Positions 285-23,282 of a stretch of 23,666 nt of DNA are shown piece after piece. Within the stretch, counting starts at the first letter, position 1, and every line of letters begins with the position of its first letter. Source of the stretch: Saccoglossus kowalevskii (Eukaryota > Hemichordata > Enteropneusta > Harrimaniidae); NCBI RefSeq assembly GCF_000003605.2, contig NW_003155253.1:1-23666 (forward strand). Direction: 5' to 3'. The notes below the pieces were generated by a model. That model had not been told where the DNA came from and did no database searches. It saw only the letters and a program-made list of their open reading frames with translations. The position numbers and the translations under genes were made by a program.

Positions 285-417
285 TATCCAGGGTGGGAAG
301 GTCCAGCATACACAACTGTTTGCTATGCTAAGCTATCCAGGGTGGGAAGGTCCAGCATACACAACTGTTTGCTATGCTAAGCTATCCAGGGTGGGAAGGT
401 CCAGCATACACAACTGT

Positions 418-866
418 TTTCCATGCTAAGCTATCCAGGGTGGGAAGGTCCAGCATACACAACTGTTTGCTATGCTAAGCTATCCAGGGTGGGAAGGTCC
501 AGCATACACAACTGTTTGCTATGCTAAGCTATCCAGGGTGGGAAGGTCCAGCATACACAACTGTTTGCCATGCTAAGCTATCCAGGGTGGGAAGGTCCAG
601 CATACACAACTGTTTGCTATGCTAAGCTATCCAGGGTGGGAAGGTCCAGCATACACAACTGTTTTCCATGCTAAGCTATCCAGGGTGGGAAGGTCCAGCA
701 TACACAACTGTTTGCTATGCTAAGCTATCCAGGGTGGGAAGGTCCAGCATACACAACTGTTTTCCATGCTAAGCTATCCAGGGTGGGAAGGTCCAGCATA
801 CACAACTGTTTGCCATGCTAAGCTATCCAGGGTGGGAAGGTCCAGCATACACAACTGTTTTCCATG
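418..866. repeat. Left-edge satellite sub-domain rich in TTCCATG units
   Basis: Four of the first twelve unit junctions are of the TTCCATG type (near 418, 663, 761 and 859). The remaining 20 kb contains only about nine more (near 4876, 5759, 7081, 9780, 10122, 14691, 15328, 19150 and 20719). The edge of the array therefore has its own variant composition, as expected if edges are homogenised less often than the interior. Confidence 0.75.
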
Positions 867-1200
867 CTAAGCTATCCAGGGTGGGAAGGTCCAGCATACA
901 CAACTGTTTGCTATGCTAAGCTATCCAGGGTGGGAAGGTCCAGCATACACAACTGTTTGCTATGCTAAGCTATCCAGGGTGGCAAGGTCCAGCATACACA
1001 ACTGTTTGCCATGCTAAGCTATCCAGGGTGGGAAGGTCCAGCATACACAACTGTTTGCTATGCTAAGCTATCCAGGGTGGGAAGGTCCAGCATACACAAC
1101 TGTTTGCTATGCTAAGCTATCCAGGGTGGGAAGGTCCAGCATACACAACTGTTTGCCATGCTAAGCTATCCAGGGTGGGAAGGTCCAGCATACACAACTG

Positions 1201-1885
1201 TTTGCTATGCTAAGCTATCCAGGGTGGGAAGGTCCAGCATACACAACTGTTTGCTATGCTAAGCTATCCAGGGTGGGAAGGTCCAGCATACACAACTGTT
1301 TGCTATGCTAAGCTATCCAGGGTGGGAAGGTCCAGCATACACAACTGTTTGCTATGCTAAGCTATCCAGGGTGGGAAGGTCCAGCATACACAACTGTTTG
1401 CTATGCTAAGCTATCCAGGGTGGGAAGGTCCAGCATACACAACTGTTTGCTATGCTAAGCTATCCAGGGTGGGAAGGTCCAGCATACACAACTGTTTGCT
1501 ATGCTAAGCTATCCAGGGTGGGAAGGTCCAGCATACACAACTGTTTGCTATGCTAAGCTATCCAGGGTGGGAAGGTCCAGCATACACAACTGTTTGCTAT
1601 GCTAAGCTATCCAGGGTGGGAAGGTCCAGCATACACAACTGTTTGCTATGCTAAGCTATCCAGGGTGGGAAGGTCCAGCATACACAACTGTTTGCTATGC
1701 TAAGCTATCCAGGGTGGGAAGGTCCAGCATACACAACTGTTTGCTATGCTAAGCTATCCAGGGTGGGAAGGTCCAGCATACACAACTGTTTGCTATGCTA
1801 AGCTATCCAGGGTGGGAAGGTCCAGCATACACAACTGTTTGCTATGCTAAGCTATCCAGGGTGGGAAGGTCCAGCATACACAACT
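1201..1885. repeat. Run of near-identical consensus satellite units
   Basis: More than a dozen consecutive units here show the plain GCTATG junction and no substitution I could see. A similar run lies at about 16690-17280. Such homogeneous blocks between variant-rich zones suggest recent local expansion, by unequal exchange or slippage, of a single unit type. Confidence 0.7.
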
Positions 1886-4396
1886 GTTTGCCATGCTAAG
1901 CTATCCAGGGTGGGAAGGTCCAGCATACACAACTGTTTGCTATGCTAAGCTATCCAGGGTGGGAAGGTCCAGCATACACAACTGTTTGCTATGCTAAGCT
2001 ATCCAGGGTGGGAAGGTCCAGCATACACAACTGTTTGCTATGCTAAGCTATCCAGGGTGGGAAGGTCCAGCATACACAACTGTTTGCTATGCTAAGCTAT
2101 CCAGGGTGGGAAGGTCCAGCATACACAACTGTTTGCTATGCTAAGCTATCCAGGGTGGGAAGGTCCAGCATACACAACTGTTTGCTATGCTAAGCTATCC
2201 AGGGTGGGAAGGTCCAGCATACACAACTGTTTGCCATGCTAAGCTATCCAGGGTGGGAAGGTCCAGCATACACAACTGTTTGCTATGCTAAGCTGTCCAG
2301 GGTGGGAAGGTCCAGCATACACAACTGTTTGCCATGTTAAGCTATCCAGGGTGGGAAGGTCCAGCATACACAACTGTTTGCTATGCTAAGCTATCCAGGG
2401 TGGGAAGGTCCAGCATACACAACTGTTTGCTATGCTAAGCTATCCAGGGTGGGAAGGTCCAGCATACACAACTGTTTGCTATGCTAAGCTATCCAGGGTG
2501 GGAAGGTCCAGCATACACAACTGTTTGCCATGCTAAGCTATCCAGGGTGGGAAGGTCCAGCATACACAACTGTTTGCTATGCTAAGCTATCCAGGGTGGG
2601 AAGGTCCAGCATACACAACTGTTTGCTATGCTAAGCTATCCAGGGTGGGAAGGTCCAGCATACACAACTGTTTGCTATGCTAAGCTATCCAGGGTGGGAA
2701 GGCCCAGCATACACAACTGTTTGCTATGCTAAGCTATCCAGGGTGGGAAGGTCCAGCATACACAACTGTTTGCTATGCTAAGCTATCCAGGGTGGGAAGG
2801 TCCAGCATACACAACTGTTTGCCATGCTAAGCTATCCAGGGTGGGAAGGTCCAGCATACACAACTGTTTGCTATGCTAAGCTATCCAGGGTGGGAAGGTC
2901 CAGCATACACAACTGTTTGCCATGCTAAGCTATCCAGGGTGGGAAGGTCCAGCATACACAACTGTTTGCTATGCTAAGCTATCCAGGGTGGGAAGGTCCA
3001 GCATACACAACTGTTTGCTATGCTAAGCTATCCAGGGTGGGAAGGTCCAGCATACACAACTGTTTGCTATGCTAAGCTATCCAGGGTGGGAAGGTCCAGC
3101 ATACACAACTGTTTGCTATGCTAAGCTATCCAGGGTGGGAAGGTCCAGCATACACAACTGTTTGCCATGCTAAGCTATCCAGGGTGGGAAGGTCCAGCAT
3201 ACACAACTGTTTGCTATGCTAAGCTATCCAGGGTGGGAAGGTCCAGCATACACAACTGTTTGCTATGCTAAGCTATCCAGGGTGGGAAGGTCCAGCATAC
3301 ACAACTGTTTGCTATGCTAAGCTATCCAGGGTGGGAAGGCCCAGCATACACAACTGTTTGCTATGCTAAGCTATCCAGGGTGGGAAGGTCCAGCATACAC
3401 AACTGTTTGCTATGCTAAGCTATCCAGGGTGGGAAGGTCCAGCATACACAACTGTTTGCTATGCTAAGCTATCCAGGGTGGGAAGGTCCAGCATACACAA
3501 CTGTTTGCTATGCTAAGCTATCCAGGGTGGGAAGGTCCAGCATACACAACTGTTTGCTATGCTAAGCTATCCAGGGTGGGAAGGTCCAGCATACACAACT
3601 GTTTGCTATGCTAAGCTATCCAGGGTGGGAAGGTCCAGCATACACAACTGTTTGCTATGCTAAGCTATCCAGGGTGGGAAGGTCCAGCATACACAACTGT
3701 TTGCTATGCTAAGCTATCCAGGGTGGGAAGGTCCAGCATACACAACTGTTTGCTATGCTAAGCTATCCAGGGTGGGAAGGTCCAGCATACACAACTGTTT
3801 GCTATGCTAAGCTATCCAGGGTGGGAAGGTCCAGCATACACAACTGTTTGCTATGCTAAGCTATCCAGGGTGGGAAGGTCCAGCATACACAACTGTTTGC
3901 CATGCTAAGCTATCCAGGGTGGGAAGGTCCAGCATACACAACTGTTTGCTATGCTAAGCTATCCAGGGTGGGAAGGTCCAGCATACACAACTGTTTGCTA
4001 TGCTAAGCTATCCAGGGTGGGAAGGTCCAGCATACGCAACTGTTTGCCATGCTAAGCTATCCAGGGTGGGAAGGTCCAGCATACACAACTGTTTGCTATG
4101 CTAAGCTATCCAGGGTGGGAAGGTCCAGCATACACAACTGTTTGCTATGCTAAGCTATCCAGGGTGGGAAGGTCCAGCATACACAACTGTTTGCTATGCT
4201 AAGCTATCCAGGGTGGGAAGGTCCAGCATACACAACTGTTTGCCATGCTAAGCTATCCAGGGTGGGAAGGTCCAGCATACACAACTGTTTGCTATGCTAA
4301 GCTATCCAGGGTGGGAAGGTCCAGCATACACAACTGTTTGCTATGCTAAGCTATCCAGGGTGGGAAGGTCCAGCATACACAACTGTTTGCCATGCT

Positions 4397-4464
4397 AAGC
4401 TATCCAGGGTGGGAAGGTCCAGCATACACAACTGTTTGCTATGCTAAGCTATCCCGGGTGGGAA
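4397..4464. repeat. Linked variant pair GCCATG then atcCcgg (copy 1)
   Basis: A GCCATG junction is followed one unit later by ATCCCGGG at 4451-4458. The same pair recurs at 8128 (75 units on) and at 14511 (205 units on, after correcting for the length changes between). The CCCGGG form creates a CpG that the consensus lacks. Confidence 0.75.
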
Positions 4465-6601
4465 GGTCCAGCATACACAACTGTTTGCTATGCTAAGCTA
4501 TCCAGGGTGGGAAGGTCCAGCATACACAACTGTTTGCTATGCTAAGCTATCCAGGGTGGGAAGGTCCAGCATACACAACTGTTTGCTATGCTAAGCTATC
4601 CAGGGTGGGAAGGTCCAGCATACACAACTGTTTGCCATGCTAAGCTATCCAGGGTGGGAAGGTCCAGCATACACAACTGTTTGCTATGCTAAGCTATCCA
4701 GGGTGGGAAGGTCCAGCATACACAACTGTTTGCCATGCTAAGCTATCCAGGGTGGGAAGGTCCAGCATACACAACTGTTTGCTATGCTAAGCTATCCAGG
4801 GTGGGAAGGTCCAGCATACACAACTGTTTGCTATGCTAAGCTATCCAGGGTGGGAAGGTCCAGCATACACAACTGTTTTCCATGCTAAGCTATCCAGGGT
4901 GGGAAGGTCCAGCATACACAACTGTTTGCTATGCTAAGCTATCCAGGGTGGGAAGGTCCAGCATACACAACTGTTTGCTATGCTAAGCTATCCAGGGTGG
5001 GAAGGTCCAGCATACACAACTGTTTGCTATGCTAAGCTATCCAGGGTGGGAAGGTCCAGCATACACAACTGTTTGCTATGCTAAGCTATCCAGGGTGGGA
5101 AGGTCCAGCATACACAACTGTTTGCTATGCTAAGCTATCCAGGGTGGGAAGGTCCAGCATACACAACTGTTTGCTATGCTAAGCTATCCAGGGTGGGAAG
5201 GTCCAGCATACACAACTGTTTGCTATGCTAAGCTATCCAGGGTGGGAAGGTCCAGCATACACAACTGTTTGCTATGCTAAGCTATCCAGGGTGGGAAGGT
5301 CCAGCATACACAACTGTTTGCCATGCTAAGCTATCCAGGGTGGGAAGGTCCAGCATACACAACTGTTTGCTATGCTAAGCTATCCAGGGTGGGAAGGTCC
5401 AGCATACACAACTGTTTGCTATGCTAAGCTATCCAGGGCGGGAAGGTCCAGCATACACAACTGTTTGCTATGCTAAGCTATCCAGGGTGGGAAGGTCCAG
5501 CATACACAACTGTTTGCTATGCTAAGCTATCCAGGGTGGGAAGGTCCAGCATACACAACTGTTTGCTATGCTAAGCTATCCAGGGTGGGAAGGTCCAGCA
5601 TACACAACTGTTTGCCATGCTAAGCTATCCAGGGTGGGAAGGTCCAGCATACACAACTGTTTGCTATGCTAAGCTATCCAGGGTGGGAAGGTCCAGCATA
5701 CACAACTGTTTGCTATGCTAAGCTATCCAGGGTGGGAAGGTCCAGCATACACAACTGTTTTCCATGCTAAGCTATCCAGGGTGGGAAGGTCCAGCATACA
5801 CAACTGTTTGCTATGCTAAGCTATCCAGGGTGGGAAGGTCCAGCATACACAACTGTTTGCTATGCTAAGCTATCCAGGGTGGGAAGGTCCAGCATACACA
5901 ACTGTTTGCTATGCTAAGCTATCCAGGGTGGGAAGGTCCAGCATACACAACTGTTTGCTATGCTAAGCTATCCAGGGTGGGAAGGTCCAGCATACACAAC
6001 TGTTTGCTATGCTAACCTATCCAGGGCGGGAAGGTCCAGCATACACAACTGTTTGCTATGCTAAGCTATCCAGGGTGGGAAGGTCCAGCATACACAACTG
6101 TTTGCTATGCTAAGCTATCCAGGGTGGGAAGGTCCAGCATACACAACTGTTTGCTATGCTAAGCTATCCAGGGTGGGAAGGTCCAGCATACACAACTGTT
6201 TGCTATGCTAAGCTATCCAGGGTGGGAAGGTCCAGCATACACAACTGTTTGCTATGCTAAGCTATCCAGGGTGGGAAGGTCCAGCATACACAACTGTTTG
6301 CTATGCTAAGCTATCCAGGGTGGGAAGGTCCAGCATACACAACTGTTTGCTATGCTAAGCTATCCAGGGTGGGAAGGTCCAGCATACACAACTGTTTGCT
6401 ATGCTAAGCTATCCAAGGTGGGAAGGTCCAGCATACACAACTGTTTGCTATGCTAAGCTATCCAGGGTGGGAAGGTCCAGCATACACAACTGTTTGCCAT
6501 GCTAAGCTATCCAGGGTGGGAAGGTCCAGCATACACAACTGTTTGCTATGCTAAGCTATCCAGGGTGGGAAGGTCCAGCATACACAACTGTTTGCTATGC
6601 T

Positions 6602-6653
6602 AAGTTATCCAGGGTGGGAAGGTCCAGCATACACAACTGTTTGCCATGATAAG
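6602..6653. repeat. Linked variant pair cTTatcc then gccatgAtaag (copy 1)
   Basis: AAGTTATCC near 6602 is followed one unit later by CCATGATAAG near 6644. The only other CCATGATAAG, near 18272, is preceded by the same AAGTTATCC. The spacing is 237 units after correcting for indels. Two linked rare changes this far apart indicate common descent by block copying and not independent mutation. Confidence 0.8.
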
Positions 6654-9336
6654 CTATCCAGGGTGGGAAGGTCCAGCATACACAACTGTTTGCTATGCTA
6701 AGCTATCCAGGGTGGGAAGGTCCAGCATACACAACTGTTTGCTATGCTAAGCTATCCAGGGTGGGAAGGTCCAGCATACACAACTGTTTGCTATGCTAAG
6801 CTATCCAGGGTGGGAAGGTCCAGCATACACAACTGTTTGCCATGCTAAGCTATCCAGGGTGGGAAGGTCCAGCATACACAACTGTTTGCTATGCTAAGCT
6901 ATCCAGGGCGGGAAGGTCCAGCATACACAACTGTTTGCCATGCTAAGCTATCCAGGGTGGGAAGGTCCAGCATACACAACTGTTTGCTATGCTAAGCTAT
7001 CCAGGGCGGGAAGGTCCAGCATACACAACTGTTTGCTATGCTAAGCTATCCAGGGTGGGATGGTCCAGCATACACAACTGTTTTCCATGCTAAGCTATCC
7101 AGGGTGGGAAGGTCCAGCATACACAACTGTTTGCTATGCTAAGCTATCCAGGGTGGGAAGGTCCAGCATACACAACTGTTTGCCATGCTAAGCTATCCAG
7201 GGTGGGAAGGTCCAGCATACACAACTGTTTGCTATGCTAAGCTATCCAGGGTGGGAAGGTCCAGCATACACAACTGTTTGCTATGCTAAGCTATCCAGGG
7301 TGGGAAGGTCCAGCATACACAACTGTTTGCTATGCTAAGCTATCCAGGGTGGGAAGGTCCAGCATACACAACTGTTTGCTATGCTAAGCTATCCAGGGTG
7401 GGAAGGTCCAGCATACACAACTGTTTGCTATGCTAAGCTATCCAGGGTGGGAAGGTCCAGCATACACAACTGTTTGCTATGTTAAGCTATCCAGGGTGGG
7501 AAGGTCCAGCATACACAACTGTTTGCTATGCTAAGCTATCCAGGGTGGGAAGGTCCAGCATACACAACTGTTTGCTATGCTAAGCTATCCAGGGTGGGAA
7601 GGTCCAGCATACACAACTGTTTGCTATGCTAAGCTATCCAGGGTGGGAAGGTCCAGCATACACAACTGTTTGCTATGCTAAGCTATCCAGGGTGGGAAGG
7701 TCCAGCATACACAACTGTTTGCTATGCTAAGCTATCCAGGGTGGGAAGGTCCAGCATACACAACTGTTTGCTATGCTAAGCTATCCAGGGTGGGAAGGTC
7801 CAGCATACACAACTGTTTGCTATGCTAAGCTATCCAGGGTGGGAAGGTCCAGCATACACAACTGTTTGCTATGCTAAGCTATCCAGGGTGGGAAGGTCCA
7901 GCATACACAACTGTTTGCCATGCTAAGCTATCCAGGGTGGGAAGGTCCAGCATACACAACTGTTTGCTATGCTAAGCTATCCAGGGTGGGAAGGTCCAGC
8001 ATACACAACTGTTTGCTATGCTAAGCTATCCAGGGTGGGAAGGTCCAGCATACACAACTGTTTGCCATGCTAAGCTATCCAGGGTGGGAAGGTCCAGCAT
8101 ACACAACTGTTTGCTATGCTAAGCTATCCCGGGTGGGAAGGTCCAGCATACACAACTGTTTGCTATGCTAAGCTATCCAGGGTGGGAAGGTCCAGCATAC
8201 ACAACTGTTTGCTATGCTAAGCTATCCAGGGCGGGAAGGTCCAGCATACACAACTGTTTGCCATGCTAAGCTATCCAGGGTGGGAAGGTCCAGCATACAC
8301 AACTGTTTGCTATGCTAAGCTATCCAGGGCGGGAAGGTCCAGCATACACAACTGTTTGCCATGCTAAGCTATCCAGGGTGGGAAGGTCCAGCATACACAA
8401 CTGTTTGCTATGCTAAGCTATCCAGGGTGGGAAGGTCCAGCATACACAACTGTTTGCTATGCTAAGCTATCCAGGGCGGGAAGGTCCAGCATACACAACT
8501 GTTTGCTATGCTAAGCTATCCAGGGTGGGAAGGTCCAGCATACACAACTGTTTGCTATGCTAAGCTATCCAGGGTGGGAAGGTCCAGCATACACAACTGT
8601 TTGCCATGCTAAGCTATCCAGGGTGGGAAGGTCCAGCATACACAACTGTTTGCTATGCTAAGCTATCCAGGGTGGGAAGGTCCAGCATACACAACTGTTT
8701 GCTATGCTAAGCTATCCAGGGTGGGAAGATCCAGCATACACAACTGTTTGCTATGCTAAGCTATCCAGGGTGGGAAGGCCCAGCATACACAACTGTTTGC
8801 TATGCTAAGCTATCCAGGGTGGGAAGGTCCAGCATACACAACTGTTTGCTATGCTAAGCTATCCAGGGTGGGAAGGTCCAGCATACACAACTGTTTGCTA
8901 TGCTAAGCTATCCAGGGTGGGAAGGTCCAGCATACACAACTGTTTGCCATGCTAAGCTATCCAGGGTGGGAAGGTCCAGCATACACAACTGTTTGCTATG
9001 CTAAGCTATCCAGGGTGGGAAGGTCCAGCATACACAACTGTTTGCTATGCTAAGCTATCCAGGGTGGGAAGGTCCAGCATACACAACTGTTTGCTATGCT
9101 AAGCTATCCAGGGTGGGAAGGTCCAGCATACACAACTGTTTGCTATGCTAAGCTATCCAGGGTGGGAAGGTCCAGCATACACAACTGTTTGCTATGCTAA
9201 GCTATCCAGGGTGGGAAGGTCCAGCATACACAACTGTTTGCTATGCTAAGCTATCCAGGGTGGGAAGGTCCAGCATACACAACTGTTTGCCATGCTAAGC
9301 TATCCAGGGTGGGAAGGTCCAGCATACACAACTGTT

Positions 9337-9398
9337 TGCTATATGCTAAGCTATCCAGGGTGGGAAGGTCCAGCATACACAACTGTTTGCTATATGCT
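9337..9398. repeat. Two consecutive 51-bp units (TA insertions)
   Basis: CTATATG replaces CTATG at 9339-9345 and again at 9390-9396, so two neighbouring periods measure 51 bp. Single copies of the same insertion are at 11157-11160 and 13910-13913. Because 51 is divisible by 3 and 49 is not, these units briefly keep one reading frame and create the only spurious minus-strand open frame in the array (9251-9433). Confidence 0.9.
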
Positions 9399-11392
9399 AA
9401 GCTATCCAGGGTGGGAAGGTCCAGCATACACAACTGTTTGCTATGCTAAGCTATCCAGGGTGGGAAGGTCCAGCATACACAACTGTTTGCTATGCTAAGC
9501 TATCCAGGGTGGGAAGGCCCAGCATACTCAACTGTTTGCTATGCTAAGCTATCCAGGGTGGGAAGGTCCAGCATACACAACTGTTTGCTATGCTAAGCTA
9601 TCCAGGGTGGGAAGGTCCAGCATACACAACTGTTTGCTATGCTAAGCTATCCAGGGTGGGAAGGTCCAGCATACACAACTGTTTGCCATGCTAAGCTATC
9701 CAGGGTGGGAAGGTCCAGCATACACAACTGTTTGCTATGCTAAGCTATCCAGGGTGGGAAGGTCCAGCATACACAACTGTTTTCCATGCTAAGCTATCCA
9801 GGGTGGGAAGGTGCAGCATACACAACTGTTTGCTATGCTAAGCTATCCAGGGTGGGAAGGTCCAGCATACACAACTGTTTGCCATGCTAAGCTATCCAAG
9901 GTGGGAAGGTCCAGCATACACAACTGTTTGCTATGCTAAGCTATCCAGGGTGGGAAGGTCCAGCATACACAACTGTTTGCTATGCTAAGCTATCCAGGGT
10001 GGGAAGGTCCAGCATACACAACTGTTTGCTATGCTAAGCTATCCAGGGTGGGAAGGTCCAGCATACACAACTGTTTGCTATGCTAAGCTATCCAGGGTGG
10101 GAAGGTCCAGCATACACAACTGTTTTCCATGCTAAGCTATCCAGGGTGGGAAGGTCCAGCATACACAACTGTTTGCTATGCTAAGCTATCCAGGGTGGGA
10201 AGGTCCAGCATACACAACTGTTTGCCATGCTAAGCTATCCAGGGTGGGAAGGTCCAGCATACACAACTGTTTGCTATGCTAAGTTATCCAGGGTGGGAAG
10301 GTCCAGCATACACAACTGTTTGCTATGCTAAGTTATCCAGGGTGGGAAGGTCCAGCATACACAACTGTTTGCCATGCTAAGCTATCCAGGGTGGGAAGGT
10401 CCAGCATACACAACTGTTTGCTATGCTAAGCTATCCAGGGTGGGAAGGTCCAGCATACATAACTGTTTGCTATGCTAAGCTATCCAGGGTGGGAAGGTCC
10501 AGCATACACAACTGTTTGCTATGCTAAGCTATCCAGGGTGGGAAGGTCCAGCATACACAACTGTTTGCCATGCTAAGCTATCCAGGGTGGGAAGGTCCAG
10601 CATACACAACTGTTTGCTATGCTAAGCTATCCAGGGTGGGAAGGTCCAGCATACATAACTGTTTGCTATGCTAAGCTATCCAGGGTGGGAAGGTCCAGCA
10701 TACACAACTGTTTGCTATGCTAAGCTATCCAGGGTGGGAAGGTCCAGCATACACAACTGTTTGCTATGCTAAGCTATCCAGGGTGGGAAGGTCCAGCATG
10801 CACAACTGTTTGCTATGCTAAGCTATCCAGGGTGGGAAGGTCCAGCATACACAACTGTTTGCTATGCTAAGCTATCCAGGGCGGGAAGGTCCAGCATACA
10901 CAACTGTTTGCTATGCTAAGCTATCCAGGGTGGGAAGGTCCAGCATACACAACTGTTTGCTATGCTAAGCTATCCAGGGTGGGAAGGTCCAGCATACACA
11001 ACTGTTTGCTATGCTAAGCTATCCAGGGCGGGAAGGTCCAGCATACACAACTGTTTGCCATGCTAAGCTATCCAGGGTGGGAAGGTCCAGCATACACAAC
11101 TGTTTGCTATGCTAAGCTATCCAGGGTGGGAAGGTCCAGCATACACAACTGTTTGCTATATGCTAAGCTATCCAGGGTGGGAAGGTCCAGCATACACAAC
11201 TGTTTGCTATGTTAAGCTATCCAGGGTGGGAAGGTCCAGCATACACAACTGTTTGCTATGCTAAGCTATCCAGGGTGGGAAGGTCCAGCATACACAACTG
11301 TTTGCCATGCTAAGCTATCCAGGGTGGGAAGGTCCAGCATACACAACTGTTTGCTATGCTAAGCTATCCAGGGTGGGAAGGTCCAGCATACA

Positions 11393-11406
11393 CAACTGTC
11401 AACTGT
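11393..11406. repeat. 7-bp tandem duplication CAACTGT inside the satellite
   Basis: CAACTGT occurs twice in a row, so this period is 56 bp. It is the largest length change in the array. It occurs once only, which marks it as a recent slippage event that has not spread to other units. Confidence 0.95.
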
Positions 11407-13077
11407 TTGCTATGCTAAGCTATCCAGGGTGGGAAGGTCCAGCATACACAACTGTTTGCTATGCTAAGCTATCCAGGGTGGGAAGGCCCAGCATACACAA
11501 CTGTTTGCTATGCTAAGCTATCCAGGGTGGGAAGGTCCAGCATACACAACTGTTTGCTATGCTAAGCTATCCAGGGTGGGAAGGTCCAGCATACACAACT
11601 GTTTGCTATGCTAAGCTATCCAGGGTGGGAAGGTCCAGCATACACAACTGTTTGCTATGCTAAGCTATCCAGGGTGGGAAGGTCCAGCATACACAACTGT
11701 TTGCTATGCTAAGCTATCCAGGGTGGGAAGGTCCAGCATACACAACTGTTTGCTATGCTAAGCTATCCAGGGTGGGAAGGTCCAGCATACACAACTGTTT
11801 GCCATGCTAAGCTATCCAGGGTGGGAAGGTCCAGCATACACAACTGTTTGCTATGCTAAGCTATCCAGGGTGGGAAGGTCCAGCATACACAACTGTTTGC
11901 TATGCTAAGCTATCCAGGGTGGGAAGGTCCAGCATACACAACTGTTTGCTATGCTAAGCTATCCAGGGTGGGAAGGTCCAGCATACACAACTGTTTGCTA
12001 TGCTAAGCTATCCAGGGTGGGAAGGTCCAGCATACACAACTGTTTGCTATGCTAAGCTATCCAGGGTGGGAAGGTCCAGCATACACAACTGTTTGCTATG
12101 CTAAGCTATCCAGGGTGGGAAGGTCCAGCATACACAACTGTTTGCCATGCTAAGCTATCCAGGGTGGGAAGGTCCAGCATACACAACTGTTTGCTATGCT
12201 AAGCTATCCAGGGTGGGAAGGTCCAGCATACACAACTGTTTGCCATGCTAAGCTATCCAGGGTGGGAAGGTCCAGCATACACAACTGTTTGCTATGCTAA
12301 GCTATCCAGGGTGGGAAGGTCCAGCATACACAACTGTTTGCTATGCTAAGCTATCCAGGGTGGGAAGGTCCAGCATACACAACTGTTTGCTATGCTAAGC
12401 TATCCAGGGTGGGAAGGTCCAGCATACACAACTGTTTGCTATGCTAAGCTATCCAGGGTGGGAAGGTCCAGCATACACAACTGTTTGCTATGCTAAGCTA
12501 TCCAGGGTGGGAAGGTCCAGCATACACAACTGTTTGCTATGCTAAGCTATCCAGGGTGGGAAGGTCCAGCATACACAACTGTTTGCTATGCTAAGCTATC
12601 CAGGGTGGGAAGGTCCAGCATACACAACTGTTTGCTATGCTAAGCTATCCAGGGTGGGAAGGTCCAGCATACACAACTGTTTGCTATGCTAAGCTGTCCA
12701 GGGTGGGAAGGTCCAGCATACACAACTGTTTGCTATGCTAAGCTATCCAGGGTGGGAAGGTCCAGCATACACAACTGTTTGCCATGCTAAGCTATCCAGG
12801 GTGGGAAGGTCCAGCATACACAACTGTTTGCTATGCTAAGCTATCCAGGGTGGGAAGGTCCAGCATACACAACTGTTTGCTATGCTAAGCTATCCAGGGT
12901 GGGAAGGTCCAGCATACACAACTGTTTGCTATGCTAAGCTATCCAGGGCGGGAAGGTCCAGCATACACAACTGTTTGCTATGCTAAGCTATCCAGGGTGG
13001 GAAGGTCCAGCATACACAACTGTTTGCTATGCTAAGCTATCCAGGGTGGGAAGGTCCAGCATACACAACTGTTTGCT

Positions 13078-13145
13078 ATGTTAAGCTATCCAGGGTGGGA
13101 AGGTCCAGCATACACAACTCTTTGCTATGCTAAGCTATCTAGGGT
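13078..13145. repeat. Three-variant haplotype gTtaag / aactCttt / atcTagg (copy 1)
   Basis: TGTTAAG, then AACTCTTTG one unit later, then ATCTAGGG appear together. The identical trio recurs at 19941-20005, exactly 140 units downstream after removing one 2-bp insertion. A related pair lacking the CTCTTT change (TGTTAAG then ATCTAGGG) lies at 17834-17897. AACTCTTTG is found only at these two places. Confidence 0.85.
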
Positions 13146-15721
13146 GGGAAGGTCCAGCATACACAACTGTTTGCTATGCTAAGCTATCCAGGGTGGGAAG
13201 GTCCAGCATACACAACTGTTTGCTATGCTAAGCTATCCAGGGTGGGAAGGTCCAGCATACACAACTGTTTGCTATGCTAAGCTATCCAGGGTGGGAAGGT
13301 CCAGCATACACAACTGTTTGCTATGCTAAGCTATCCAGGGTGGGAAGGTCCAGCATACACAACTGTTTGCCATGCTAAGCTATCCAGGGTGGGAAGGTCC
13401 AGCATACACAACTGTTTGCCATGCTAAGCTATCCAGGGTGGGAAGGTCCAGCATACACAACTGTTTGCTATGCTAAGCTATCCAGGGTGGGAAGGTCCAG
13501 CATACACAACTGTTTGCTATGCTAAGCTATCCAGGGTGGGAAGGTCCAGCATACACAACTGTTTGCTATGCTAAGCTATCCAGGGTGGGAAGGTCCAGCA
13601 TACACAACTGTTTGCTATGCTAAGCTATCCAGGGTGGGAAGGTCCAGCATACACAACTGTTTGCCATGCTAAGCTATCCAGGGCGGGAAGGTCCAGCATA
13701 CACAACTGTTTGCTATGCTAAGCTATCCAGGGTGGGAAGGTCCAGCATGCACAACTGTTTGCTATGCTAAGCTATCCAGGGCGGGAAGGTCCAGCATACA
13801 CAACTGTTTGCTATGCTAAGCTATCCAGGGTGGGAAGGTCCAGCATACACAACTGTTTGCTATGCTAAGCTATCTAGGGTGGGAAGGTCCAGCATACACA
13901 ACTGTTTGCTATATGCTAAGCTATCCAGGGTGGGAAGGTCCAGCATACACAACTGTTTGCTATGCTAAGCTATCCAGGGTGGGAAGGTCCAGCATACACA
14001 ACTGTTTGCTATGCTAAGCTATCCAGGGTGGGAAGGTCCAGCATACACAACTGTTTGCTATGCTAAGCTATCCAGGGTGGGAAGGTCCAGCATACACAAC
14101 TGTTTGCTATGCTAAGCTATCCAGGGTGGGAAGGCCCAGCATACACAACTGTTTGCTATGCTAAGCTATCCAGGGTGGGAAGGTCCAGCATACACAACTG
14201 TTTGCTATGCTAAGCTATCCAGGGTGGGAAGGTCCAGCATACACAACTGTTTGCTATGCTAAGCTATCCAGGGTGGGAAGGTCCAGCATACACAACTGTT
14301 TGCCATGCTAAGCTATCCAGGGTGGGAAGGTCCAGCATACACAACTGTTTGCTATGCTAAGCTATCCAGGGTGGGAAGGTCCAGCATACACAACTGTTTG
14401 CTATGCTAAGCTATCCAGGGTGGGAAGGTCCAGCATACACAACTGTTTGCCATGCTAAGCTATCCAGGGTGGGAAGGTCCAGCATACACAACTGTTTGCT
14501 ATGCTAATCTATCCCGGGTGGGAAGGTCCAGCATACACAACTGTTTGCTATGCTAAGCTATCCAGGGTGGGAAGGTCCAGCATACACAACTGTTTGCTAT
14601 GCTAAGCTATCCAGGGTGGGAAGGTCCAGCATACACAACTGTTTGCTATGCTAAGCTATCCAGGGTGGGAAGGTCCAGCATACACAACTGTTTTCCATGC
14701 TAAGCTATCCAGGGTGGGAAGGTCCAGCATACACAACTGTTTGCTATGCTAAGCTATCCAGGGTGGGAAGGTCCAGCATACACAACTGTTTGCCATGCTA
14801 AGCTATCCAGGGTGGGAAGGTCCAGCATACACAACTGTTTGCTATGCTAAGCTATCCAGGGTGGGAAGGTCCAGCATACACAACTGTTTGCTATGCTAAG
14901 CTATCCAGGGTGGGAAGGTCCAGCATACACAACTGTTTGCTATGCTAAGCTATCCAGGGTGGGAAGGTCCAGCATACACAACTGTTTGCTATGCTAAGCT
15001 ATCCAGGGTGGGAAGGTCCAGCATACACAACTGTTTGCTATGCTAAGCTATCCAGGGTGGGAAGGTCCAGCATACACAACTGTTTGCTATGCTAAGCTAT
15101 CCAGGGTGGGAAGGTCCAGCATACACAACTGTTTGCTATGCTAAGCTATCCAGGGTGGGAAGGTCCAGCATACACAACTGTTTGCTATGCTAAGCTATCC
15201 AGGGTGGGAAGGTCCAGCATACACAACTGTTTGCTATGCTAAGCTATCCAGGGCGGGAAGGTCCAGCATACACAACTGTTTGCTATGCTAAGCTATCCAG
15301 GGTGGGAAGGTCCAGCATACACAACTGTTTTCCATGCTAAGCTATCCAGGGTGGGAAGGTCCAGCATACACAACTGTTTGCTATGCTAAGCTATCCAGGG
15401 TGGGAAGGTCCAGCATACACAACTGTTTGCCATGCTAAGCTATCCAGGGTGGGAAGGTCCAGCATACACAACTGTTTGCCATGCTAAGCTATCCAGGCTG
15501 GGAAGGTCCAGCATACACAACTGTTTGCTTTGCTAAGCTATCCAGGGTGGGAAGGTCCAGCATACACAACTGTTTGCTATGCTAAGCTATCCAGGGTGGG
15601 AAGGTCCAGCATACACAACTGTTTGCTATGCTAAGCTATCCAGGGTGGGAAGGTCCAGCATACACAACTGTTTGCTATGCTAAGCTATCCAGGGTGGGAA
15701 GGTCCAGCATACACAACTGTT

Positions 15722-16072
15722 TGCCATGCTAAGCTATCCAGGGTGGGAAGGTCCAGCATACACAACTGTTTGCTATGCTAAGCTATCCAGGGCGGGAAGG
15801 TCCAGCATACACAACTGTTTGCCATGCTAAGCTATCCAGGGTGGGAAGGTCCAGCATGCACAACTGTTTGCTATGCTAAGCTATCCAGGGTGGGAAGGTC
15901 CAGCATACACAACTGTTTGCTATGCTAACCTATCCAGGGCGGGAAGGTCCAGCATACACAACTGTTTGCTATGCTAAGCTATCCAGGGTGGGAAGGTCCA
16001 GCATACACAACTGTTTGCTATGCTAAGCTATCCAGGGTGGGAAGGTCCAGCATACACAACTGTTTGCCATGC
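15722..16072. repeat. Eight-unit higher-order block, copy A
   Basis: The junction order is GCCATG, GCTATG with gggCggg, GCCATG with catGca downstream, GCTATG, GCTATG with aaCctat and gggCggg, GCTATG, GCTATG, GCCATG. The same order is found at 17290-17640 and 18613-18963. The two gggCggg changes are 147 bp apart in all three copies. Copy A and copy B share the aaCctat change; copy C lacks it. Confidence 0.85.
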
Positions 16073-17289
16073 TAAGCTATCCAGGGTGGGAAGGTCCAGC
16101 ATACACAACTGTTTGCTATGCTAAGCTATCCAGGGTGGGAAGGTCCAGCATACACAACTGTTTGCTATGCTAAGCTATCCAGGGTGGGAAGGTCCAGCAT
16201 ACACAACTGTTTGCTATGCTAAGCTATCCAGGGTGGCAAGGTCCAGCATACACAACTGTTTGCCATGCTAAGCTATCCAGGGTGGGAAGGTCCAGCATAC
16301 ACAACTGTTTGCTATGCTAAGCTATCCAGGGTGGGAAGGTCCAGCATACACAACTGTTTGCTATGCTAAGTTATCCAGGGTGGGAAGGTCCAGCATACAC
16401 AACTGTTTGCCATGCTAAGCTATCCAGGGTGGGAAAGTCCAGCATACACAACTGTTTGCTATGCTAAGCTATCCAGGGTGGGAAGGTCCAGCATACACAA
16501 CTGTTTGCTATGCTAAGCTATCCAGGGTGGGAAGGTCCAGCATACACAACTGTTTGCTATGCTAAGCTATCCAGGGTGGGAAGGTCCAGCATACACAACT
16601 GTTTGCCATGCTAAGCTATCCAGGGTGGGAAGGTCCAGCATACACAACTGTTTGCTATGCTAAGCTATCCAGGGCGGGAAGGTCCAGCATACACAACTGT
16701 TTGCTATGCTAAGCTATCCAGGGTGGGAAGGTCCAGCATACACAACTGTTTGCTATGCTAAGCTATCCAGGGTGGGAAGGTCCAGCATACACAACTGTTT
16801 GCTATGCTAAGCTATCCAGGGTGGGAAGGTCCAGCATACACAACTGTTTGCTATGCTAAGCTATCCAGGGTGGGAAGGTCCAGCATACACAACTGTTTGC
16901 TATGCTAAGCTATCCAGGGTGGGAAGGTCCAGCATACACAACTGTTTGCTATGCTAAGCTATCCAGGGTGGGAAGGTCCAGCATACACAACTGTTTGCTA
17001 TGCTAAGCTATCCAGGGTGGGAAGGTCCAGCATACACAACTGTTTGCTATGCTAAGCTATCCAGGGTGGGAAGGTCCAGCATACACAACTGTTTGCTATG
17101 CTAAGCTATCCAGGGTGGGAAGGTCCAGCATACACAACTGTTTGCTATGCTAAGCTATCCAGGGTGGGAAGGTCCAGCATACACAACTGTTTGCTATGCT
17201 AAGCTATCCAGGGTGGGAAGGTCCAGCATACACAACTGTTTGCTATGCTAAGCTATCCAGGGTGGGAAGGTCCAGCATACACAACTGTT

Positions 17290-17640
17290 TGCCATGCTAA
17301 GCTATCCAGGGTGGGAAGGTCCAGCATACACAACTGTTTGCTATGCTAAGCTATCCAGGGCGGGAAGGTCCAGCATACACAACTGTTTGCCATGCTAAGC
17401 TATCCAGGGTGGGAAGGTCCAGCATGCACAACTGTTTGCTATGCTAAGCTATCCAGGGTGGGAAGGTCCAGCATACACAACTGTTTGCTATGCTAACCTA
17501 TCCAGGGCGGGAAGGTCCAGCATACACAACTGTTTGCTATGCTAAGCTATCCAGGGTGGGAAGGTCCAGCATACACAACTGTTTGCTATGCTAAGCTATC
17601 CAGGGTGGGAAGGTCCAGCATACACAGCTGTTTGCCATGC
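17290..17640. repeat. Eight-unit higher-order block, copy B
   Basis: This block has the same order of diagnostic variants as 15722-16072, exactly 1568 bp (32 units) downstream. It includes gggCggg at 17361 and 17508, catGca at 17423 and aaCctat at 17495. It also has a private change, cacaGctg, near 17627, acquired after the duplication. Confidence 0.85.
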
Positions 17641-18612
17641 TAAGCTATCCAGGGTGGGAAGGTCCAGCATACACAACTGTTTGCCATGCTAAGCTATCCA
17701 GGGTGGGAAGGTCCAGCATACACAACTGTTTGCTATGCTAAGCTATCCAGGGTGGGAAGGTCCAGCATACACAACTGTTTGCTATGCTAAGCTATCCAGG
17801 GTGGGAAGGTCCAGCATACACAACTGTTTGCTATGTTAAGCTATCCAGGGTGGGAAGGTCCAGCATACACAACTGTTTGCTATGCTAAGCTATCTAGGGT
17901 GGGAAGGTCCAGCATACACAACTGTTTGCTATGCTAAGCTATCCAGGGTGGGAAGGTCCAGCATACACAACTGTTTGCTATGCTAAGCTATCCAGGGTGG
18001 GAAGGTCCAGCATACACAACTGTTTGCTATGCTAAGCTATCCAGGGTGGGAAGGTCCAGCATACACAACTGTTTGCCATGCTAAGCTATCCAGGGTGGGA
18101 AGGTCCAGCATACACAACTGTTTGCTATGCTAAGCTATCCAGGGTGGGAAGGTCCAGCATACACAACTGTTTGCTATGCTAAGCTATCCAGGGTGGGAAG
18201 GTCCAGCATACACAACTGTTTGCTATGCTAAGTTATCCAGGGTGGGAAGGTCCAGCATACACAACTGTTTGCCATGATAAGCTATCCAGGGTGGGAAGGT
18301 CCAGCATACACAACTGTTTGCTATGCTAAGCTATCCAGGGTGGGAAGGTCCAGCATACACAACTGTTTGCTATGCTAAGTTATCCAGGATGGGAAGGTCC
18401 AGCATACACAACTGTTTGCCATGCTAAGCTATCCAGGGTGGGAAGGTCCAGCATACACAACTGTTTGCTATGCTAAGCTATCCAGGGTGGGAAGGTCCAG
18501 CATACACAACTGTTTGCTATGCTAAGCTATCCAGGGTGGGAAGGTGCAGCATACACAACTGTTTGCTATGCTAAGCTATCCAGGGTGGGAAGGTCCAGCA
18601 TACACAACTGTT

Positions 18613-18963
18613 TGCCATGCTAAGCTATCCAGGGTGGGAAGGTCCAGCATACACAACTGTTTGCTATGCTAAGCTATCCAGGGCGGGAAGGTCCAGCATA
18701 CACAACTGTTTGCCATGCTAAGCTATCCAGGGTGGGAAGGTCCAGCATGCACAACTGTTTGCTATGCTAAGCTATCCAGGGTGGGAAGGTCCAGCATACA
18801 CAACTGTTTGCTATGCTAAGCTATCCAGGGCGGGAAGGTCCAGCATACACAACTGTTTGCTATGCTAAGCTATCCAGGGTGGGAAGGTCCAGCATACACA
18901 ACTGTTTGCTATGCTAAGCTATCCAGGGTGGGAAGGTCCAGCATACACAACTGTTTGCCATGC
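18613..18963. repeat. Eight-unit higher-order block, copy C
   Basis: This is a third copy of the block, 1323 bp (27 units) after copy B and 59 units after copy A. It carries gggCggg at 18684 and 18831 and catGca at 18746, but the consensus aaGctat where A and B have aaCctat. A and B are therefore closer to each other than to C, or C is the older state. Confidence 0.8.
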
Positions 18964-19119
18964 TAAGCTATCCAGGGTAGGAAGGTCCAGCATACACAAC
19001 TGTTTGCTATGCTAAGCTATCCAGGGTGGGAAGGTCCAGCATACACAACTGTTTGCTATGCTAAGCTATCCAGGGTGGGAAGGTCCAGCATACACAACTG
19101 TTTGCTATGCTAAGCTATC

Positions 19120-19275
19120 CAGGATGGGAAGGTCCAGCATACACAACTGTTTTCCATGCTAAGCTATCCAGGGTGGGAAGGTCCAGCATACACAACTGTT
19201 TGCTATGCTAAGCTATCCAGGGTGGGAAGGTCCAGCATACACAACTGTTTGCCATGCTAAGCTCTCCAGGGTGGG
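19120..19275. repeat. Four-unit haplotype ggAtggg / TTCCATG / GCCATG / ctCtcc (copy 1)
   Basis: GGATGGG at 19122-19128 is followed by a TTCCATG junction, one plain unit, then GCCATG with GCTCTCC. The same order starts at 20690 (GGATGGG) and ends at about 20835, exactly 32 units (1568 bp) later. In the second copy the last junction has also lost one C (CATGTAAG at 20821-20828). Confidence 0.85.
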
Positions 19276-20820
19276 AAGGTCCAGCATACACAACTGTTTG
19301 CTATGCTAAGCTATCCAGGGTGGGAAGGTCCAGCATACACAACTGTTTGCTATGCTAAGCTATCCAGGGTGGGAAGGTCCAGCATACACAACTGTTTGCT
19401 ATGCTAAGCTATCCAGGGTGGGAAGGTCCAGCATACACAACTGTTTGCTATGCTAAGCTATCCAGGGTGGGAAGGTCCAGCATACACAACTGTTTGCTAT
19501 GCTAAGCTATCCAGGGTGGGAAGGTCCAGCATACACAACTGTTTGCTATGCTAAGCTATCCAGGGTGGGAAGGTCCAGCATACACAACTGTTTGCTATGC
19601 TAAGCTATCCTGGGTGGGAAGGTCCAGCATACACAACTGTTTGCTATGCTAAGCTATCCAGGGTGGGAAGGTCCAGCATACACAACTGTTTGCTATGCTA
19701 AGCTATCCAGGGTGGGAAGGTCCAGCATACACAACTGTTTGCTATGCTAAGCTATCCAGGGTGGGAAGGTCCAGCATACACAACTGTTTGCTATGCTAAG
19801 CTATCCAGGGTGGGAAGGTCCAGCATACACAACTGTTTGCTATGCTAAGCTATCCAGGGTGGGAAGGTCCAGCATACACAACTGTTTGCTATGCTAAGCT
19901 ATCCAGGGTGGGAAGGTCCAGCATACACAACTGTTTGCTATGTTAAGCTATCCAGGGTGGGAAGGTCCAGCATACACAACTCTTTGCTATGCTAAGCTAT
20001 CTAGGGTGGGAAGGTCCAGCATACACAACTGTTTGCTATGCTAAGCTATCCAGGGTGGGAAGGTCCAGCATACACAACTGTTTGCTATGCTAAGCTATCT
20101 AGGGTGGGAAGGTCCAGCATACACAACTGTTTGCTATGCTAAGCTATCCAGGGTGGGAAGGTCCAGCATACACAACTGTTTGCCATGCTAAGCTATCCAG
20201 GGTGGGAAGGTCCAGCATACACAACTGTTTGCTATGCTAAGCTATCCAGGGTGGGAAGGTCCAGCATACACAACTGTTTGCTATGCTAAGCTATCCAGGG
20301 TGGGAAGGTCCAGCATACACAACTGTTTGCTATGCTAAGCTATCCAGGGTGGGAAGGTCCAGCATACACAACTGTTTGCTATGCTAAGCTATCCAGGGTG
20401 GGAAGGTCCAGCATACACAACTGTTTGCTATGCTAAGCTATCCAGGGTGGGAAGGTCCAGCATACACAACTGTTTGCTATGCTAAGCTATCCAGGGCGGG
20501 AAGGTCCAGCATACACAACTGTTTGCTATGCTAAGCTATCCAGGGTGGGAAGGTCCAGCATACACAACTGTTTGCTATGCTAAGCTATCCAGGGTGGGAA
20601 GGTCCAGCATACACAACTGTTTGCTATGCTAAGCTATTCAGGGTGGGAAGGTCCAGCATACACAACTGTTTGCTATGCTAAGCTATCCAGGATGGGAAGG
20701 TCCAGCATACACAACTGTTTTCCATGCTAAGCTATCCAGGGTGGGAAGGTCCAGCATACACAACTGTTTGCTATGCTAAGCTATCCAGGGTGGGAAGGTC
20801 CAGCATACACAACTGTTTGC

Positions 20821-20834
20821 CATGTAAGCTCTCC
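20821..20834. repeat. Single-base deletion in a satellite unit
   Basis: CATGTAAG replaces CATGCTAAG, giving a 48-bp period. It is the only net deletion in the array. A one-base insertion (GCCTATG at 21161-21167) six units later gives a 50-bp period. GCCTATG looks like a mix of the GCCATG and GCTATG junction types. Confidence 0.9.
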
Positions 20835-21320
20835 AGGGTGGGAAGGTCCAGCATACACAACTGTTTGCTATGCTAAGCTATCCAGGGTGGGAAGGTCCAG
20901 CATACACAACTGTTTGCTATGCTAAGCTATCCAGGGTGGGAAGGTCCAGCATACACAACTGTTTGCTATGCTAAGCTATCCAGGGTGGGAAGGTCCAGCA
21001 TACACAACTGTTTGCTATGCTAAGCTATCCAGGGTGGGAAGGTCCAGCATACACAACTGTTTGCTATGCTAAGCTATCCAGGGTGGGAAGGTCCAGCATA
21101 CACAACTGTTTGCTATGCTAAGTTATCCAGGGTGGGAAGGTCCAGCATACACAACTGTTTGCCTATGCTAAGCTATCCAGGGTGGGAAGGTCCAGCATAC
21201 ACAACTGTTTGCTATGCTAAGCTATCCAGAATGGGAAGGTCCAGCATACACAACTGTTTGCTATGCTAAGCTATCCAGGGTGGGAAGGTCCAGCATACAC
21301 AACTGTTTGCTATGCTAAGC

Positions 21321-21408
21321 TGTTGATAAACAACATAGCACCAAAATACTAAGCAAATAACTTAATAGTCTGTTTCTGAATCGTTTTTACATGCTGTTTT
21401 TATTGTAG
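21321..21408 (+). other. 3' end of giant intron, with inverted-repeat arm and acceptor
   Basis: The satellite stops at 21320 and TGTTGATAAA (21321-21330) begins at once; this is the inverted match to 4-13. A small hairpin, GTTG-ATAAA-CAAC, covers 21322-21334. The rest is AT-rich, ending in the pyrimidine-rich tract TGCTGTTTTTATTGTAG and the acceptor AG at 21407-21408. I see no exon or RNA gene here. Confidence 0.8.
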
Positions 21409-21596
21409 GACTTCAGGCTCCTTTGCTAGTTCGTCATCCAGAAACTGGAGACTTATTGATCAACTTTGACCCAATGATATACCAAGTTATCAGAGAAACA
21501 GACTGCCTTATGAAATTAGGATTAGATGTCCCAGAGACAGCAAAAATAATCAAACTTAGTGAAGATATATTAAAGAGTACCTACGACAAATTAAGG
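21409..21596 (+). CDS. Axonemal dynein heavy chain, tail exon (DNAH5/DNAH8-like), partial
   Basis: This is an internal coding exon of 188 nt. It opens with GA, completing a split codon, then runs 62 codons beginning LQAPLLVRHPETGD and ending STYDKLR. It matches, by my recognition of the family, the DHC_N1 tail region of axonemal dynein heavy chains, where a stretch of the LLVRHPETG...NFDP...RET type is characteristic. Outer-arm gamma (DNAH5/DNAH8) is the closest class; inner-arm and beta types read differently here. The protein is a microtubule minus-end-directed ATPase of cilia and flagella, and this part lies in the tail that binds intermediate chains and neighbouring heavy chains, not in the motor. 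The exon is bounded by TTGTAG upstream and AGG/GTAGAT downstream. Reading past the donor meets TAA at 21660, as expected in an intron. Nothing looks broken. Confidence 0.85.
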
Positions 21597-22031
21597 GTAG
21601 ATATCAGATTCCTTACAAATTGCAATACCATATTTGCCCTTTTAGAAGTGCATCTTCTATAAGTTTTTTGAGTTGTTTTTGAAATGAAATGTTTGTATCA
21701 TTAAGATACACTAACAAATGACTTGTGCTGTTTATTCCAGTGTAATCATAGCTAATTACAGATCAACAATTTTTTATCAAAAATAATATCATATTTGTGA
21801 TCAAATGTACAAGTGTCAAAATGCCAAAAAAAATAACATAACAAAAAGCTCCAATATAAGCACTCCCAAAACGTAGACATAAGCTTATAAACTCTCAATC
21901 TCCCAGCCTTGTGTTAGATTATGCAGCATTATTGATTAGATTTTCAGAGCTGTAAATGGTTTGGTGGAAAGTGATTTGCAAATGTAAGTAATAATTATGT
22001 TCATATGGTAATATGATTTCTTTTTTTCCAG
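21597..22031 (+). other. Intron between the two dynein exons (435 bp)
   Basis: It begins GTAGAT and ends with the T-rich tract TTTTTTTCCAG. It is AT-rich throughout and has no coding potential. A decoy acceptor (TTTATTCCAG, 21731-21740) lies inside. Phase is 0 at both sides: the codon before it ends at 21596 and the next codon starts at 22032, so the two exons join in frame as ...KLR then MVLDENSK.... That agreement supports both exon boundaries. Confidence 0.85.
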
Positions 22032-22229
22032 ATGGTTCTGGACGAAAATAGTAAATTACGAGACAGTGTCTTACCAATCTTCATGCCTTTAATGACTAAT
22101 TTTATCAAGAGAATTGACATAGCATTGAATCCAGCTTTAACATTACTGTCATGGACTTCATTAAATTTAGATTCATACTTCGCAAATGTGCAGTCCGCTA
22201 TGAGAGAATTGTCTTTACTTAATAAACGT
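22032..22229 (+). CDS. Axonemal dynein heavy chain, next tail exon, partial
   Basis: This exon of 198 nt encodes 66 residues, phase 0 at both ends, reading MVLDENSKLRDSV... and ending ...LSLLNKR. The leading ATG is an internal methionine, not a start: it directly follows the acceptor CAG and continues the previous exon. The LSWTSLNLDSYF motif (about residues 40-51 of the exon) is the best diagnostic; a WTSxN-type motif at this place marks outer-arm gamma heavy chains (DNAH5/DNAH8) as I know them, while beta-type chains differ. The segment is helical, with regular spacing of hydrophobic residues, as expected of the dynein tail bundle. The donor CGT/GTAAGT is a perfect consensus. About 128 residues of a protein normally above 4000 are visible, so the ortholog assignment is provisional. 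Confidence 0.85.
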
Positions 22230-22390
22230 GTAAGTATAATTTTAGTTTGTTTTAGTCAACTTTCCGTTGTGTGCAATTATGCACTTTGGGTTGGCTGTAT
22301 TTTATGGTCATCCAGGTATAACTGTCACTCAGCAGGAAAATACACCATGACTGAAATGGTGTAAATCCCAATTAGAAATCCCTAGTTGCA

Positions 22391-22442
22391 TACATGTACT
22401 CTTGTGCTTAATGGCAGTTAGTATTAGGCAGGTACATGTACT
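22391..22442. repeat. Paired TACATGTACT words
   Basis: TACATGTACT occurs at 22391-22400 and again at 22433-22442. Its first eight bases are a perfect palindrome. The pair may belong to a short dispersed element, but no boundaries could be defined. Confidence 0.4.
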
Positions 22443-22823
22443 TGGTCTCTGCTCTGTGACTGACAGCGTGGTGGAGGGCATGGTGTAATTCAGGCGTTGG
22501 CGTTTAGTGTTGGGCTTGCTAGTTTTAAAGTTATTTTCCTGGAGAGAGATGAAAAGTTTGTATTCACTGAGAACGGTCAAAATTTGCAGACACCACAATT
22601 CAAACTATTGTTGGAATCCCTACAAGCCACACAGATTTCAAAATAGTTGTAGTCCTGCATACTAGACTCACAAAGGATGGCCATTTATTTGGTGTGCTGT
22701 GAAGGCAGGACAATTTCTTCAACAAAATTGTCATTCATCATAAGTGGTTTCAATGATGTTTCCCAAATCAAAATACATTAGAGACGCTTTGTCAGCAAGG
22801 AAACCCCTGCATTGACGTATTTG

Positions 22824-23245
22824 CATAACTTAAATGAACTGTCAGAACTAGGCTAAGTCAAAGAAGCGATAGACAGAGAATGAGTTGGGAAACAACGCCT
22901 GCCGTGCGTGTCGAGCCAGCTAGCCAATACCCTCAATCTGTAATGCCGCAATATATAGTGTCAAGGTGTTAGCCACGCTAGCTAAGATAATCACACGTTG
23001 AGCTTAAAAACAATCAAGCATTGGCGCCGGTAATCTTTTCCTGCCTTGGCATTGGCTTGAAATTGTCTATACCAATAAACAAGCTGGTTGCTATACAGCT
23101 GGTAGTGAGGGGAAAGATTACATTGCTTAATCTGCTTCTCAAGGTTACGTATAAAAGATGACACATTTAAAACTGTGTTAAACATAAATACATAACTTAA
23201 ATGAACTGTCAAAACTAGGCTAAGTCAAAGAAGCGATAGACAGAG
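22824..23245. mobile_element. Candidate small element bounded by 55-bp direct repeats
   Basis: 22824-22878 and 23191-23245 are 55-bp direct repeats with one mismatch (the 22nd base, G versus A), starting CATAACTTAAATGAACTG and ending GATAGACAGAG. Weaker similarity (a GTTGGG word) continues past both copies. The 312 bp between them contains a nested foldback: GTAATCTTTTCC (23030-23041) with GGAAAGATTAC (23111-23121), and inside it GCTTG with CAAGC. A TATAAAAG word lies at 23150-23157. The shape would suit a terminal-repeat non-autonomous retroelement or a recent local duplication; I saw no primer-binding site or target-site duplication that decides between them. Confidence 0.5.
23030..23121. 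repeat. Nested foldback sequence
   Basis: Outer arms GTAATCTTTTCC and GGAAAGATTAC differ by one T; inner arms GCTTG and CAAGC pair within them. The foldback lies centrally in the segment bounded by the 55-bp direct repeats. Confidence 0.45.
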
Positions 23246-23282
23246 CATAAGGTTGGGCAGTCAGGTACTGCTGATGATAATT

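Follow-up and report, generated by a model that had tools for sequence, protein, structure and literature searches.

Does a 21-kb block of near-identical tandem repeats lying upstream of a dynein exon represent a counterpart of the giant repeat-filled introns of Drosophila Y-linked dynein genes, or is it a simpler kind of repeat that happens to have grown in such a gene? This question is raised by the first 23,666 nucleotides (hereafter the window) of a 196,648-bp contig of the hemichordate Saccoglossus kowalevskii, C4457, which begins at window base 1 and carries 284 bp before the repeats start. An earlier note on this DNA had described a satellite within an axonemal dynein heavy chain intron and had drawn a parallel with the fruit-fly genes kl-3 and kl-5. 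In our best reading, the array is an ordinary though unusually long intron minisatellite, neutral and housed in a permissive intron, rather than a counterpart of the fruit-fly giant Y introns.

The array was defined by Tandem Repeats Finder (TRF), by decomposition into units and by genome-wide pattern counts. TRF, run on the window, returned a single row over the region, with none other overlapping it: a plus-strand repeat at 285-21321 (21,037 bp) with a period of 49 bp, 429.0 copies of the consensus TATCCAGGGTGGGAAGGTCCAGCATACACAACTGTTTGCTATGCTAAGC and 98% matches, bearing out the unit, copy number and length that the earlier note had given. Unit decomposition showed that 275 of the 429 whole units are identical to the consensus, and that a single T-to-C change at one site is the sole variation in 53 others; the units fall into 40 kinds, 19 of which are singletons, and their mean pairwise difference is 1.6%. 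Across 17 blocks of 25 whole units, changes per unit range from 0.20 to 0.68 in a flat profile, indicating that the array has no clearly aged edge. Inspection of unit order revealed repeated blocks of variants, one of 10 units at 15539 and 17107 (30.7 bits) and one of five units at 12989 and 19851 (22.2 bits), both of which outscore every one of 60 shuffled unit orders (maximum 18.6 bits); a third duplicated block, at 17.7 bits, does not exceed that maximum. Duplication of this kind is the trace expected of unequal exchange or segmental conversion, which suggests that the array was shaped by one of these mechanisms.

Genome-wide searches of the 572-Mb assembly returned the unit at this locus only. 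An exact 34-base part of the unit gave 362 matches, all 362 of them within the window, and none on the reverse strand, while a 24-base part searched with up to three mismatches gave 429 matches, every one inside the array. These counts pertain to the readable part of the assembly, N stretches lying outside their reach, and within that part the 49-bp unit is private to this locus. A genome-wide satellite DNA family is therefore rejected, the window being the only place where the readable part of the 572 Mb yielded copies of the unit; and since the unit is restricted to one locus, the label "satellite" in the sense of such a family, as applied in the earlier note, is the wrong term. What is found instead corresponds to a minisatellite, with units in the range of about 10-100 bp, high identity and confinement to one locus. 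Locus-specific minisatellites, or VNTRs, of introns have units of tens of bases arranged head to tail at a single locus, and polymorphism is a mark of the class. The window array resembles them in unit length, head-to-tail order, high homogeneity, single location and the arrangement of variant units in blocks; it differs in its extent, 21 kb being long for a minisatellite.

We found little in the unit itself to suggest a product. A coding array is rejected, as the longest stop-to-stop run is 83 amino acids across 21 kb, and a structured RNA finds no support: folds of one and two 49-bp units are no more stable than shuffled sequences (z=0.47 and -0.44), and a search of Rfam gave no match to the unit at gathering scores. 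Splice and polyadenylation motifs are likewise scarce: the 21,037 array bases contain no GTRAGT, one GTRAG, no CAG preceded by a pyrimidine tract (eight or more C/T) and no AATAAA, as compared to three, four, four and three, respectively, in 2,629 flank bases that include real exons and splice sites. Because all copies share one ancestry, this absence amounts to one draw of a 49-mer and not to 429 independent draws.

The sequence to the right of the array reads, on the plus strand, as the 3' end of an intron (21322-21408), with a pyrimidine-rich tract and an acceptor AG at 21407-21408, followed by a dynein tail exon at 21409-21596 that Pfam, PDB and genome searches place at the end of DHC_N1 and at human DNAH5 from residue 692. 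A 435-bp phase-0 intron (21597-22031), with a GTAGAT donor and the acceptor TTTTTTTCCAG, leads to a second tail exon at 22032-22229 (about DNAH5 residues 754-817 by Pfam and PDB searches), which ends at a donor GTAAGT; the reading frame is kept across the two exons. Together, they encode Pfam DHC_N1 profile positions 451-562 (E=5.1e-28) and match DNAH5 residues 692-817 (E=4.7e-21), in accord with the earlier proposal of an axonemal dynein heavy chain exon downstream of the repeats. A search of PDB sequences with an E-value limit of 0.001 gave 22 matches. Dynein heavy chain is the label of 18; the other four are labelled CFAP57, AAA+ ATPase, IDAf-alpha and RSPH9, and their lengths of 4583-4730 residues fit dynein chains. 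The top match, to residues 821-943 of 9fqr_I3 (E=5.8e-27), bears the label CFAP57, which disagrees with its 4730-residue length and with its matches, and we take this chain to be DNAH8. Judged by these best matches, the host gene is predicted to encode an axonemal outer-arm dynein heavy chain of the DNAH5/DNAH8 type. Comparison of the first exon with its paralogue on contig C2352 over 62 codons shows 68%, 73% and 45% identity at codon positions 1, 2 and 3, apparently the pattern of a sequence under protein constraint.

The intron that begins after the second exon occupies the remainder of the window (22230-23666, plus strand), and a genome sequence search located interspersed repeats in it at 22881-23282 and 23266-23664. 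The first of these stretches has a match on contig C362 (94%) and a partial one on C369 (97%); the second is a repeat of about 390 bp into which fall 42 of the 45 matches listed (40 of 1523 candidates scored). Two 75-bp direct repeats, at 22815-22889 and 23182-23256, are 88% identical and lie 367 bp apart.

Whether the array belongs to an intron of the dynein gene can be approached through the acceptor. Exon 21409-21596 opens with the two bases GA, which complete a split codon that we infer to be glycine from the paralogues on C2352 and C4775, both of which read SG-L without interruption at the place of the window acceptor. The window gene would accordingly contain a phase-1 intron within a glycine codon where C2352 and C4775 carry none, indicating that the array very probably sits within an intron of one transcript. 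Seen from its 3' side, this intron has a minimum length of 21,408 bp, set by the contig start, and the array makes up 98% of the visible part (21,037 of 21,408 bp). The earlier placement of the array in a dynein intron is thus made very probable by the acceptor and by a split codon that fits the paralogues; an upstream exon, which the earlier note had proposed to locate in the assembly, is not assignable among the readable contigs. A DHC_N1 search of the readable genome (35 matches) and a search with the 181 residues that come before this region in the C2352 gene (six matches, E up to 10) both failed to yield an orphan exon that could be assigned to the window gene; this exon would lie in unassembled sequence, within a run of N or on a different contig.

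Two other contigs were considered as carriers of other parts of the gene. C1309, which encodes DNAH5-type exons for residues 280-496 followed by stem exons, matches DHC_N1 at positions 28-147 but is more diverged (111.8 bits to DNAH5, versus 330.1 for C2352) and was not established as a partner; the window gene itself scores 78.5 bits to DNAH5, as compared to 122.5 for C2352 at the same region. The gap within the C1309 gene is explicable by the contig's own N run at 35186-48548. The C1309 gene (61683-64789 and 26714-33524) further carries a lysine-rich tail insert, KPKPKRKGKDKD. C2318, with DNAH5-type stem exons that score 467.4 bits to DNAH5 residues 1201-1532 (331 residues), is much less diverged and likewise was not established as a partner.

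The left flank (1-284, no strand assigned) is the start of the contig, as delimited by contig coordinates, sequence search and three-frame translation. No dynein exon was seen in it by translation, and homology searches gave no dynein match there. Inspection by eye revealed CAG-G-GTAAGT at 77-86 (GTAAG at 81), about 200 bp before the array, which comes near a recursive (zero-length) splice site; with one base too many, it was rejected as an exact one.

It is improbable, though worth weighing, that the array is real and its setting is not, the exons being a displaced duplicate or the contig start a misjoin, such that no transcript crosses the repeats. The contig starts just 284 bp before the array, the readable genome offers no orphan upstream exon, and none of 52 DHC_N2 matches falls on C4457, all being on other contigs; because bases 23667-31000 of C4457, directly beyond the window, read N, this last absence says little. 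Against a stranded or misjoined fragment, the exons possess open frames, acceptors, donors and codon-position constraint, the split codon agrees with the SG-L of both paralogues, and a search with the window exons gave six matches in the readable genome, two to themselves and four at 37-46% identity, with no other near-identical copy.

We consider it likely that a minisatellite confined to this locus grew to 21 kb within an intron of a gene for an axonemal dynein heavy chain of the outer arm (DNAH5/DNAH8 type). Under this model, the array would have grown by unequal exchange or conversion between units, would be transcribed passively within the pre-mRNA, and would be spliced out with the intron, having no role of its own. 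As consensus donors, acceptors with a pyrimidine tract and poly(A) signals are nearly absent from the 49-mer, each copy would add length and few cryptic sites, so that expansion would be nearly neutral. Against this account, searches of the readable genome recovered neither a 5' splice site nor an upstream exon, and the length of the array is exceptional, far exceeding that of any other array examined (the next is 2.0 kb).

Examination of other contigs with TRF showed that tandem repeats are frequent in the stretches examined and that their units vary from gene to gene. Within 30.6 kb of readable sequence, C2318 (L042) carries arrays at 3993-4514 (29 bp x 18.0) and 5893-7889 (50 bp x 39.9), both between dynein stem exons, as well as at 26324-26592 (37 bp x 7.2) and 30780-31422 (55 bp x 11.7); none of the 12-mers of the 49-bp unit occurs in its first 8500 bases. 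On C4775 (L017), an array at 99577-100411 (168 bp x 5.0) overlaps a fragment of a dynein exon, NPGLSALNWTSLSIE, that is present in repeated copies, which suggests that part of the coding sequence was amplified, and a second array lies at 104526-104637 (20 bp x 5.6). The parts of C1309 and C2352 examined hold arrays of at least 100 bp with 1.9-3.0 copies, and the C1211 stretch holds no array of 100 bp or more. Small arrays, such as one of 41 bp x 6.5, also occur at eight non-dynein loci (25.5 kb), a non-random set that entered the comparison through matches to repeats or flank of the window. With minisatellites present in introns of another dynein gene and beside some unrelated loci, chance in a genome rich in tandem repeats may explain one long array.

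Drosophila kl-3 is the orthologue of DNAH5/DNAH8, and the window locus resembles kl-3 and kl-5 in having a tandem array, very probably intronic, in an outer-arm axonemal dynein heavy chain gene. It seems very unlikely to us that the array acts as a functional giant intron of the Y-loop style, delaying or gating dynein expression in spermatogenesis and requiring dedicated RNA-binding proteins. The shared gene class, kl-3 and kl-5 being outer-arm dyneins (PMC8248703), would favor such a role, as would the 98% share of the array in a visible intron that may be longer still and the presence of intronic arrays in a second DNAH5-type gene, that of C2318. The dimensions argue otherwise: kl-3 is a Y-linked gene with visible loops that spans at least 4.3 Mb, some of its introns comprising megabases of simple satellites such as AATAT (PMC6508621), whereas the sequence of the window locus shows a 21-kb array of a private 49-mer that is unstructured. 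Drosophila testis genes whose largest intron measures 50-100 kb showed no consistent downregulation upon splicing-factor loss (PMC11207136); the window array falls below the size at which Drosophila effects are seen, an argument that weakens if the intron extends far past the contig start. The Y-loops of D. pseudoobscura are thought to derive from genes on the Y, the kl-3/kl-5 homologues of that species being autosomal and thought to be loop-free, and the authors of that work suggest that loop formation goes with Y linkage and not with the identity of the gene (PMC6508621). Within about 2 My, moreover, both the sequence of mega-introns and the genes that carry them turn over (PMC8794474). The unit is also not shared with other arrays in the manner of Y-loops, occurring at one locus only in the readable genome. 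Thus, of the parallel drawn earlier, the gene class stands and the mechanism finds no support, leaving what we regard as a weak analogy.

There is similarly only a slim chance that, in distantly related animals, introns of DNAH5/DNAH8-type genes have repeatedly gained long arrays whose units are unrelated, late, strong and germline- or cilia-restricted transcription tolerating or using slow introns. The arrays behind such a reading are the 49-mer described here, the 29-mer and 50-mer of C2318 and the AATAT of Drosophila kl-3. A literature search for arrays in dynein introns, conducted mostly without full texts or subscription journals, found no report outside Drosophila.

Least probable of all is that a mobile element, non-autonomous and of Helitron/Helentron or other type, entered the intron and that the array is its tandem core, a situation comparable to that of satellite-like arrays in oysters: elements with such cores occur in Crassostrea gigas (PMC7492417) and, by eye, the 10-base TTTATCAACA (4-13) and its reverse complement TGTTGATAAA (21321-21330) flank the array on both sides, but the left flank has no copy family (two genome matches, itself and one on C2916 at 71% over the 83 query bases 73-155) and no unit copies exist elsewhere in the readable genome. 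The oyster cores and the window array are alike as tandem arrays among the genes of an animal genome; in a study that covered 100-500 bp units, the former are dispersed and short, at most 29.3 monomers of mostly 140-180 bp (PMC7492417), whereas the latter is found at one place. The 87 bases to the right of the array have no match but themselves among the matches listed (40 of 1523 candidates scored).

Taken alone, then, the locus amounts to a single long minisatellite in an intron. It would gain broader significance if whole-genome counts gave sperm and cilia genes more such arrays than other genes of equal intron content, and it offers a clean test case because its unit is private and easy to probe.

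Among the contigs surveyed, C4830 (L054) carries at 13523-14863 a COX1 gene that requires TGA to be read as Trp, with seven such codons inside. The C-terminal stretch of its product resembles those of echinoderms and hemichordates, and the features of the gene tentatively suggest an ambulacrarian host. The 529 residues of COX1 are open under table 2, so that AGA and AGG are absent, and reading ATA as Ile gives more usual residues.
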